A DNA stretch of 64,000 bases, taken from contig NZ_WJIF01000004.1 in the NCBI RefSeq assembly GCF_009647605.1, positions 134,435-198,434 of the forward strand, given 5' to 3'. This DNA is from Agromyces agglutinans. Lineage in GTDB: Bacteria > Actinomycetota > Actinomycetes > Actinomycetales > Microbacteriaceae. The translations under genes were made by a program, and so were the position numbers. The notes below the pieces were generated by a model, which was not told where the DNA came from, made no database searches, and worked only from the letters and a program-made list of their open reading frames with translations. Shown here piece by piece: positions 30,843 through 33,822 of the stretch (the first letter of the stretch is position 1; the number at the start of each line of letters is the position of its first letter).

Positions 30843-30917
30843 ACCGCCGATCGACGGCACGTGCCGCGGTCGTCCCCTCGCCTCGAACCTTCGCCTGCGC
30901 GAGGTAGTGTCGGCAGC

Positions 30918-31907
30918 ATGCAGACCCGCGTTCTCGGCCGTACGGGCCGCACCGTCTCCGTCATCGGCCTCGGCACCTGGCAGCTCGGCGCCGACTGGGG
31001 CCAGGTCGACGAAGCCGACGCGCTCGCCGTGCTCGACGCGGCGCACGACGCCGGCGTCACCGTGTTCGACACCGCCGACGTGTACGGCGACGGCCGCAGC
31101 GAATCGCTGATCGGCCGCTGGCTGCGCGAGCATCCCGGCGCCGGCGTGACGGTCGCCACGAAGATGGGCCGGCGCGTGCCGCAGCTGGTCGAGCACTACA
31201 CGCTCGAGAACTTCCGCGCGTGGACCGACCGGTCGCGCGCGAACCTCGGCGTCGACACGCTCGACCTCGTGCAGCTGCACTGCCCGCCGACCGCGCTGTA
31301 CGCCGACGACCGGGTCTTCGACGCGCTCGACACGCTGGTCGACGAGGGCGCCATCGCCGCCTACGGGGTCAGCGTCGAGCAGGTCGACGAGGCACTCGCG
31401 GCGATCGCGCGCCCGAACGTCGCGAGCGTGCAGATCATCCTGAACGCGTTCCGGCTGAAGCCGCTCGACGAGGTGCTGCCGGCCGCGCAGGCCGCCGGCG
31501 TCGGCATCATCGCGCGCGTGCCGCTCGCGAGCGGGCTCCTCTCGGGTCGCTATACCCTCGAGACCTCGTTCGCCGAGAACGACCACCGCACGTTCAACCG
31601 CCACGGCGAGGCGTTCGACGTGGGCGAGACGTTCTCCGGCGTCGACTACGCGACCGGCGTGCGTGCGGCGGGCGAGTTCGCGCAGCTCGCGAAGCAGGTG
31701 CTGCCCGATGCCACGCCGGCGCAGGTCGCGCTCGCGTGGGTGGCCGCTCAGCCCGGCGTGAGCACGGTGATCCCGGGGGCGCGCAACCCGGAGCAGGCGC
31801 GAGCCAACGCGGCGGCGGGCTCGTTCGACCTGCCCGAGTCGTTCTTCGCGGGCGTCCGCGAGCTGTACGACCGTGAGCTGCGGGCCGCGATCCACCCCCG
31901 CTGGTAG
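30918..31907 (+). CDS. Aldo/keto reductase
   Basis: This is a 329-residue NADPH-dependent oxidoreductase with a TIM barrel. MQTRVLGRTGRTVSVIGLGTWQLG opens the protein in AKR style (first 20 residues recognisable). The catalytic tetrad is visible as Asp in FDTADVYGDGRSE, Tyr in the same segment, Lys in VATKMGRR and His in LVQLHCPP. The NADPH-binding end is STVIPGARNPEQARAN. TAGTGT ends 7 nt before the ATG, so the mRNA is probably leaderless. Physiological substrate unknown. Confidence 0.9.
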   Translation: MQTRVLGRTGRTVSVIGLGTWQLGADWGQVDEADALAVLDAAHDAGVTVFDTADVYGDGRSESLIGRWLREHPGAGVTVATKMGRRVPQLVEHYTLENFRAWTDRSRANLGVDTLDLVQLHCPPTALYADDRVFDALDTLVDEGAIAAYGVSVEQVDEALAAIARPNVASVQIILNAFRLKPLDEVLPAAQAAGVGIIARVPLASGLLSGRYTLETSFAENDHRTFNRHGEAFDVGETFSGVDYATGVRAAGEFAQLAKQVLPDATPAQVALAWVAAQPGVSTVIPGARNPEQARANAAAGSFDLPESFFAGVRELYDRELRAAIHPRW

Positions 31908-32042
31908 CACGTCGCCGACGCGGGATCCGCGCGGTTCCGCCCTTCCGGGCCGATCGTCCCGCTAGATTGACACCGTGCGAGTTCGGCCGGGGGGCCGACG
32001 GCGCATGCGATGCGATCGCACGTTCGATTCGGGGGAGAACGT

Positions 32043-32822
32043 ATGGACATCGAAACACGTGGCACCGCGGTGCCGTCGGCACGTGGCGGTCGGGCCGGTT
32101 TCGCCGGGCGCCTCGCCGGGGCCGGCGTCGTCGGCCTGATCGCGCTCGCCGGGGGCCTCGCCGCGGGCCTGGCCGCACCGGCGAATGCGGTCGAGCCGGC
32201 AACCGCGCGCAGTGCGGCGCCCGCCGTCGCAACGGCCGGCATCGGCACGGGGGCGGCCGGCCTCGACCTCGCGGCGACGCGGCTGAGCGCCGCGACCGGA
32301 CTCGCGGGCGGGGCATCCGCTGCCGCGTCGGCGCTCATCGACGAGGCGTCGGCCGCGCTCGGCGGCGACCGGGTCGCCGCGCTCCTCGCCGCACGCGCCG
32401 ACCTGGTCGGTGCCGCGGCGACATCGGCCGTGCCGGCGCCGATCCTCACCGCGCGCGGCGCGGTGCTCGCCGAGCACGCGCGTGTCGCCGACGCACTCGC
32501 GCAGTTCCGTGCGGCTGAGCAGGCGCGCCTCGCGGCCGAGGCGGCAGCCCAGGCCGCTGCTGCCGAGGCCGCGCGCATCGCCGCCGAGGAGGCCGCCGGT
32601 GACTCCGTCGATGCGTCGGTCGACGATTCGACGGCGGATGCCGCGACGGGCGCCGCACCGGATGCCGCCCCAGCCGAGCCGGCCGCAGCTGCGACCTTCG
32701 ACGCCTCGGCGTATCCCGGCCTGCCCGCGAGCCCGCGCGACGAGGACTGCGGTCCGTGCGTCGGGCAGGAGATGATCCCGGTGTTCCACGAAGGCACCTG
32801 GCGCTGGGGCTGCCGCCCCTGA
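32043..32822 (+). CDS. Exported Ala-rich protein with small Cys-containing C-terminal module
   Basis: This 259-residue protein has a signal peptide (about residues 20-50, ending ANA), then long Ala-rich helices including a coiled-coil-like stretch (EQARLAAEAAAQAAAAEAAR). A disordered Asp/Ala segment and a compact end with three cysteines (EDCGPCVGQEMIPVFHEGTW, final WGCRP) follow. GGGGGAG 5 nt upstream supports ATG 32043. No family is recognised. The layout (helical stalk plus Cys-knotted tip) resembles wall-associated proteins such as the coiled-coil part of the lytic protein at 18.7 kb, but the catalytic domain is absent. Confidence 0.65.
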   Translation: MDIETRGTAVPSARGGRAGFAGRLAGAGVVGLIALAGGLAAGLAAPANAVEPATARSAAPAVATAGIGTGAAGLDLAATRLSAATGLAGGASAAASALIDEASAALGGDRVAALLAARADLVGAAATSAVPAPILTARGAVLAEHARVADALAQFRAAEQARLAAEAAAQAAAAEAARIAAEEAAGDSVDASVDDSTADAATGAAPDAAPAEPAAAATFDASAYPGLPASPRDEDCGPCVGQEMIPVFHEGTWRWGCRP

Positions 32823-32857
32823 CGGCCGGCCCGTCGGGCGCGGCTAGGCTGGCGACG

Positions 32858-32902
32858 ATGCATCCGTCGCCCACCGCCCGCCCGACGGGGTCGCGCCGGT
32901 GA
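32858..32902 (+). CDS. Candidate 14-residue leaderless upstream ORF coupled to the AEC transporter
   Basis: ATG at 32858 opens MHPSPTARPTGSRR and its TGA overlaps the GTG of the transporter (GTGA at 32899-32902). A TAGGCT -10 box (32845-32850) ends 7 nt before this ATG, the same spacing seen at the other leaderless genes here, whereas the transporter's own GTG has no ribosome site. Ribosomes therefore probably start on the short ORF and re-initiate on the GTG. Confidence 0.5.
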   Translation: MHPSPTARPTGSRR

Positions 32903-33822
32903 CCGACATCCTGACCGGATTCGCGGTCATCGGCCTCGCCGTGCTGGTCGGCTGGATCGTCGCGCGCGCCGGCGTGCTGCCGCCCGAGGCGCGTCAGGTG
33001 CTGGCACGGCTGAACTTCAGCGTGCTCGGGCCGTTCCTGCTCTTCTCGGTGCTCTCGACGGCCGACGTCGGCTCGCTGTTCTCGGCACTGCTGCCGGTGT
33101 CGGCCGCCGCCGCGGTCGCGATGATGCTGCTGTTCTCGCTCGTGTCGTTGCTCGTCTGGCGGCGCAGCGTCGCCCACACGACCGTGGGGGCGCTCGCCTC
33201 GGGGTACGTGAACGGCAACAACTTCGGCATCCCGATCGCGGTGTACATGCTCGGCGACGCCGCGTACGCGGCACCCATCGTGCTGCTGCAGCTGCTGTTG
33301 TTCGCGCCGGTCGGGCTGGCGATCCTCGGCGCGACGGTCGAGGGTCGCACGTCGGTGCGGCAGATCGTCCGCGGCACGCTGCTGAACCCCATCATCCTGG
33401 GGTCGCTGCTCGGCGTCGCGGTCGCCGTGTCGGGCGTGGAGCTGCCGCCGTACGTGCAGGAGCCGGTCGACCTCATCGGCCACGCGGCCGTGCCGCTCAT
33501 GCTCATCGCGTTCGGCATGTCGCTGCACGGCAAGCGGCTGCTCGAGCCGGGCACCGATCGCCGCGACGTGCTGCTCGCGACCTGCCTGCAGTTGATCGCC
33601 ATGCCGCTGGTCGCGTGGGCCGTGGGGTCGTTCGCCTTCGGCCTCGACGGACACGACCTCTACGCCGTCACGGTGCTCGCGGCGCTGCCGGCCGCGCAGA
33701 ACGTATTCGTGTTCGCGCAGCGCTACGAGACCGCCGAGACGCTGGCTCGCGATACGGTCTTCCTCACGACCGCGGGGTCGCTGCCCGTGCTCGTCGTCGT
33801 GGCCCTGCTGCTGGGCGGCTGA
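32899..33822 (+). CDS. AEC-family transporter (auxin efflux carrier superfamily)
   Basis: This 307-residue membrane protein has ten hydrophobic helices in two five-helix bundles. The family pattern LARLNFSVLGPFLLFSVLS in helix 2 and the crossover region YVNGNNFGIPIAVYMLG are clear. Bacterial AEC proteins move organic acids or other small anions; the substrate here is unknown. The start is a GTG inside the overlap with a 14-codon upstream ORF, and no Shine-Dalgarno sequence precedes it. Confidence 0.85.
   Translation: MTDILTGFAVIGLAVLVGWIVARAGVLPPEARQVLARLNFSVLGPFLLFSVLSTADVGSLFSALLPVSAAAAVAMMLLFSLVSLLVWRRSVAHTTVGALASGYVNGNNFGIPIAVYMLGDAAYAAPIVLLQLLLFAPVGLAILGATVEGRTSVRQIVRGTLLNPIILGSLLGVAVAVSGVELPPYVQEPVDLIGHAAVPLMLIAFGMSLHGKRLLEPGTDRRDVLLATCLQLIAMPLVAWAVGSFAFGLDGHDLYAVTVLAALPAAQNVFVFAQRYETAETLARDTVFLTTAGSLPVLVVVALLLGG

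Follow-up and report, generated by a model that had tools for sequence, protein, structure and literature searches.

Introduction

In mycobacteria, a class of 'coupled' leaderless small ORFs has been defined (Shell et al., 2015; PMC4633059), reported to deliver ribosomes to the next gene whatever peptide they encode, with some modulation by the peptide considered conceivable. In the uPPE2-PPE2 pair of M. tuberculosis, reporters showed strict dependence of the downstream gene on the upstream ORF through an AUGA overlap, mainly by termination-reinitiation (PMC11260477). Huber et al. (2019; PMC6728339) likewise found strict coupling for 13 of the 14 gene pairs with ATGA or TGATG overlaps that they tested. 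In E. coli, a 5'-terminal upstream AUG, as in ptrB, recruits ribosomes and raises downstream expression in some genes (PMC4965119), and according to a 2025 review short ORFs that deliver ribosomes may be widespread.

Here I analyse a 14-codon ORF (hereafter the mini-ORF) that precedes an AEC-type transporter gene in a 64,000-nucleotide stretch of DNA from Agromyces, a genus of soil bacteria (hereafter the window), and compare it with the start regions of the orthologous transporter across the genus.

The mini-ORF and its surroundings

The features on which the analysis rests are the following:

30861–31907, forward strand: aldo/keto reductase (PF00248), not adjoining the transporter in the window
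32010–32822, forward strand: Ala-rich ORF with C-terminus ..TWRWGCRP, ending 22 nt 5' of the -10 box
32845–32850, forward strand: -10-like box TAGGCT, read from the sequence, 7 nt before the ATG at 32858
32858–32902, forward strand: mini-ORF MHPSPTARPTGSRR, 14 codons, ATG to TGA, predicted 5' end of the transcript
32899–32902, forward strand: GTGA stop/start overlap (TGA 32900–32902 on GTG 32899–32901), predicted termination-reinitiation site
32899–33822, forward strand: AEC-type transporter, 307 amino acids (Pfam Mem_trans, PF03547, E 8.9e-34)

An earlier note on this DNA had described the box, its 7-nt spacing, the 14-codon ATG ORF and the GTGA overlap, and a reading of the sequence confirms its coordinates and letters. 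TAGGCT is the sole TANNNT within 200 nt upstream of the transporter GTG, and a sigma-70-type scan of 32500–33300 found no promoter-like pair with a -35. The named transporter relatives that were found (n = 21) come from Agromyces (17), Streptomyces (2), Specibacter (1) and Galbitalea (1). The Ala-rich ORF at 32010–32822 matches no Pfam family at E 0.001; its C-terminus, ..CGPCVGQEMIPVFHEGTWRWGCRP, recurs 5' of the transporter, at varying distances, in L023, L027, L030, L034 and L040.

I favour the reading that the mini-ORF starts without a leader, loads ribosomes and passes them to the transporter by termination-reinitiation, which would place it in the 'coupled' class that Shell et al. (2015) defined, and give this reading a probability of roughly three in four. 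TAGGCT would set the transcription start at or beside the A of the ATG at 32858; a ribosome would initiate leaderless on the 5'-terminal AUG, translate the 14 codons and terminate at the TGA. That ribosome, or one close by, would then reinitiate at the GTG in the overlap and so produce the transporter, before whose start no convincing ribosome site is seen. On this reading the peptide would be a by-product, and the features kept would be the start near the -10 box, the open frame and the overlap. While the anatomy can be read directly, I infer the transcript start, mini-ORF translation and reinitiation from this anatomy and from its conservation.

The likeness to the class of Shell et al. (PMC4633059) is close: an ORF of fewer than 50 amino acids at the 5' end runs through RTGA into the next gene, the leaderless start here being a predicted one. 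The mini-ORFs have fewer than 50 codons (14 in the window, 9–25 in the orthologs) in another frame than the transporter, overlap it by RTGA, and are conserved in placement more than in peptide, and as in some of the mycobacterial cases it is the placement and the coupling that are kept and not the peptide. Unlike that study, the present one concerns Microbacteriaceae, works from sequence alone, and covers 53 species in which the mini-ORF is exchanged for other ribosome sources. As in uPPE2-PPE2 (PMC11260477), an out-of-frame upstream ORF, there with an AUGA overlap, would feed a gene without an SD; however, the uPPE2 ORF comes with its own SD and is subject to a B12 riboswitch, whereas the start here is of leaderless type and the surrounding segment has no Rfam riboswitch match. 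For the 5'-terminal AUG ORFs of E. coli (PMC4965119) the gene that follows carries an SD, and the ptrB effect was judged independent of uORF translation, an early stop keeping 40%, whereas the Agromyces mini-ORF keeps its stop/start overlap conserved. The coupled pairs of Huber et al. (PMC6728339) consist of two genes, whereas in Agromyces a mini-ORF takes the place of the first.

Transporter start regions across the genus

I examined 60 genomes of the genus; the transporter ortholog was present in 53, and all 53 start regions were read. In 28 of them a mini-ORF preceded by TANNNT-N6..8-RTG ends on the transporter start, and a mechanical rule, which tried one start position per locus, also gives 28; the box lies 6–8 nt before the mini-ORF start in 28/28, the same criterion having picked the 28. 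The overlap is RTGA in 27 of these and TGATG in one.

The 14-codon form, TANNNT-N6..8-ATG with an RTGA overlap, is found in 21/53 orthologs and begins with ATG in 21/21, the first codon having been chosen by the analyst in five of them (L025, L028, L029, L033 and L060), where an alternative in-frame start lies 1–4 codons upstream and the start 6–8 nt from the box was taken; in L033 and L060 the earlier start is also near the box, at 5 and 4 nt, respectively. Mini-ORFs of 20 codons occur in L057 and L059, and of 9 codons in L062, L063, L065 and L066. The closest relative, L023 (90% identity), has a 25-codon mini-ORF: there the second codon of the transporter gives no RTGA, and the stop is placed one codon earlier, as TGATG.

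The remaining orthologs show other arrangements. In nine of the 53 a -10 box TANNNT stands immediately 5' of the ATG of the transporter itself, and four have a strong SD, AGGAGGAG, before its GTG. In 11 relatives with neither, a reductase homologous to 30861–31907 adjoins the transporter, and this aldo/keto reductase is the predicted ribosome donor. The two genes overlap directly in GTGA in L048; in the other 10 a relay mini-ORF bridges the two genes, stop to start, with lengths of 5, 5, 7, 7, 26, 26, 28, 28, 32 and 35 codons. These relays start on a GTG overlapping the reductase stop and end in GTGA on the transporter. Since the reductase ends in Trp-stop (TGGTGA), the first GTG of the relay comes free; the closing frame does not. 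The relays of 26–35 codons that overlap both genes by GTGA are those of L039, L041, L045, L047, L051 and L053. Finally, in L073 a long upstream ORF, a putative gene, overlaps the transporter start directly.

The relays of 5–35 codons resemble the MIRUs of mycobacteria (PMC12548453), in which a short ORF before a gene is coupled to it at a -4 nt spacing. MIRUs are mobile repeats, whereas the relay of L045, the sole relay searched as a repeat, occurs in full just once in its genome (G011), with one 29-nt partial match besides, and so is probably not a MIRU-like repeat there.

An upstream stop thus overlaps the transporter start in 40/40 species without an own box or strong SD. RTGA is present at 39/40 start regions with an overlapping upstream ORF (the other one being TGATG) versus 4/13 of the rest (L035, L038, L069 and L072, which have RTGA without a mini-ORF), giving a Fisher value of 1.5e-6 that overstates the case, because relatedness leaves one well supported independent pair. 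By phylogenetic pairs, the association has one pair on well supported branches and five in all, and reaches no significance.

The comparison that the earlier note had proposed, for ORF length and overlap kept despite changing nucleotides, was positive within the genus Agromyces, and the layout kept across the genus supports its description of the mini-ORF as leaderless in type and coupled to the transporter.

Ribosome sites before the transporter

The earlier note had stated that the transporter GTG has no ribosome site. This holds only approximately: a weak GACGGGG lies upstream, pairing with the anti-SD at -5.2 kcal/mol versus -3.4 for shuffled sequence (z -0.9). Among 239 genes of a genome of the genus (G053), with mechanically chosen starts, the median is -4.7 kcal/mol, with 40% of the genes at -6 or stronger; by this measure the site before the transporter, though weak, is ordinary for the genus.

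The ordinary strength of this site favours an alternative in which the mini-ORF is incidental: the transcript would start near 32858, and ribosomes would enter at the GTG directly, through the weak GACGGGG in a 41-nt leader. Better sites in some relatives point the same way, with moderate pairing in L024 (-9.7 kcal/mol, GGAGG), L040 (-8.3), L032 (-7.9) and L029 (-6.8), so that full dependence on the mini-ORF need not hold everywhere; in these relatives, coupling may supplement expression that does not require it. Against direct entry, the mean pairing is not above that of shuffled sequence. The 28 mini-ORF loci average -4.35 kcal/mol (shuffled -3.84; mean z -0.24) and the 11 reductase loci -4.35 (shuffled -4.05; mean z -0.17), while the four strong-SD species stand at -11.5 kcal/mol.

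Frame constancy and phylogeny

The start-to-start distances in the 38 mini-ORFs (28 leaderless, 10 relays) are 14, 20, 26, 41, 59, 77, 83, 95 and 104 nt, and all nine equal 2 mod 3. The tree requires at least 11 changes of distance. Were the frame irrelevant, one change in three would keep it, which over 11 changes gives (1/3)^11, or ~6e-6, a rough estimate given parsimony counts on a quick tree with less than 80% support at 16 of 58 forks and species groups assigned by inspecting these very regions. At least nine changes of whole architecture are also needed, and the 14-codon form is scattered over several clades of the genus. For this tree, 253 residues of the L074 transporter, which is cut short, were used, and 8 of 24 loci from other genera served as outgroup.

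This constancy of frame speaks against the incidental-ORF explanation, as do the ATG in all 21 of the 14-codon ORFs, the TGATG that replaces RTGA in L023, and the relay ORFs in 10 relatives; I consider that explanation unlikely. Because the frame is constant and the donors are exchanged, I infer that the transporter depends on translation of the ORF before it, in keeping with a leaderless mini-ORF coupled by reinitiation.

In the 24 loci from other genera, [TC]ANNNT lies 4–9 nt before the transporter start in 11, and is TANNNT in four of those, the start differing from the aligned position in 5 of the 24. These boxes suggest that a leaderless transporter may be the ancestral state. They also bear on the idea that the mini-ORF is the true N-terminus of the transporter, joined to it by frameshifting at the overlap, for which there is a precedent in the minor frameshifted fusion that accompanies reinitiation in uPPE2-PPE2 of M. 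tuberculosis (PMC11260477). A -10 box directly before the transporter ATG in nine Agromyces orthologs leaves no room for an extension, boxes stand directly before the transporter start in some of the loci from other genera too, and mini-ORFs vary in both length and sequence, making a fused N-terminus extremely improbable.

Chance level and control genes

The incidental-ORF explanation does draw support from a single genome, where the match to the leaderless mini-ORF pattern is not beyond chance. TANNNTN7RTG occurs five times on both strands of the window, versus 3.59 expected. Among 691 coding-like ORFs of G053 (1.2 Mb), seven match the leaderless-plus-RTGA pattern, one being the transporter ortholog; five altered boxes give 3, 3, 1, 5 and 4 matches, and CA...T gives 7, although this last box could in turn be a genuine -10 variant. 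The pattern is significant because it is conserved, in 28/53 orthologs under one mechanical rule, and not from any one genome.

Three control genes were examined, each in its 30 best loci out of the genomes with a match (59 for fabD, 60 for aceE, 40 for a hydrolase that I take to be YdjM-like). For fabD one start position was tried per locus, as for the transporter; the rule for aceE and the hydrolase was laxer, with five positions tried. It picked 15 of the best 30 aceE loci, with lengths of 25–31 codons, where an SD-like AGAGAGG was seen by eye. That a coupled-looking mini-ORF turns up so often despite an SD-like stretch shows single cases to be weak.

The G053 scan had suggested fabD as a second 14-codon case. 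This was rejected: the rule picked 6 of its best 30 loci (all six with 14 codons), whereas in 28 of the best 30 fabD has its own CAGACT or CAGGAT box, 6–7 nt 5' of the GTG, and so looks leaderless itself in the genus. Most fabD loci (L159–L188, including L160, G000 C1:82171-83085) also share, as judged by eye, an upstream CTTGT...CACAC stretch.

For the hydrolase the rule picked 3 of the best 30 loci, namely the window genome and its two nearest relatives; the mini-ORFs, leaderless in type and coupled, have 22, 20 and 9 codons (L190, G000 C1:210792-211574; L189; L195). At the same start, mini-ORFs beginning Met-His were seen by eye in L193 and L197 (17 codons) and in L214 (11 codons), perhaps led by an SD. 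The controls aceE and fabD, each with its own start signal, keep mini-ORFs poorly, and none of the controls shows the transporter pattern.

The peptide is not conserved

The earlier note had also proposed that the Pro-rich, Arg-ending peptide could stall ribosomes and sense charged tRNA or a small molecule, and the peptide of the window does have three Pro in its 14 codons and an Arg-Arg end. The mini-ORF would then encode a regulatory leader peptide, and ribosomes halted at its Pro or Arg codons, or binding of a small molecule, would tune transporter expression. Across the 21 orthologous 14-codon peptides this proposal finds no support: Met1 is the only fixed residue, Pro is rarer than expected from base composition (13.2% versus 20.7%), Arg is slightly commoner (21% versus 17.5%), the peptides end in Ala in 16 cases and in Arg in two, Arg-Arg ends 2/21, and Pro-Pro occurs in 1/21. 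Fourteen residues is, moreover, short for nascent chain sensing from the tunnel.

The nucleotides agree. The 29 nt after the ATG have a mean identity of 43% over the 21 loci, versus 34% for shuffled letters, while in the same loci the ATG is at 100%, transporter codons 3–100 at 79%, and the 29 nt 5' of the box at 35%. The GC content at the three codon positions is 0.75/0.76/0.85 in the mini-ORFs, a weak coding-like signal, versus 0.70/0.46/0.97 in the transporter. Low peptide conservation together with this weak signal suggests that any open frame is translated and that no particular peptide is selected.

A riboswitch or other RNA structure was likewise rejected as a candidate: at 32300–33500 no Rfam family reaches threshold (one match, far below its gathering score, lies inside the transporter), and RNAalifold on the 21 rows gives no common fold and no pairs. 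A scan of 32500–33300 found no terminator-like site. Neither the conserved peptide or codon motif, nor the RNA structure or terminator, that mark a leader peptide or attenuator was thus found here. Since the peptides are not conserved, the sensor or stalling idea is unsupported, and I regard a regulatory leader peptide as highly unlikely.

Implications

A coupled, leaderless mini-ORF as the ribosome source of the transporter would belong to a class already known from mycobacteria; in Agromyces it is unusually clear that the arrangement is kept while the peptide is not. In the open-licence literature, titles and abstract openings of work on leaderless expression in Agromyces and Microbacteriaceae gave nothing on this arrangement, and titles in the broader literature gave nothing on this transporter.

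A more speculative and rather doubtful proposal is that the transporter start is a pure reinitiation site whose donor can be swapped, between its own promoter, a leaderless mini-ORF and a relay. The length of 14 codons, which is mostly held, might then suit the hand-over of a 70S ribosome that has initiated without a leader, or might link the transporter to conditions in which leaderless initiation is at an advantage.

Such mini-ORFs may be missed by gene finders. The 53 start regions, from one genus and one gene, form a natural series with seemingly four kinds of ribosome source, and they would therefore make the rule 'no SD, therefore coupled' testable with ready-made variants.
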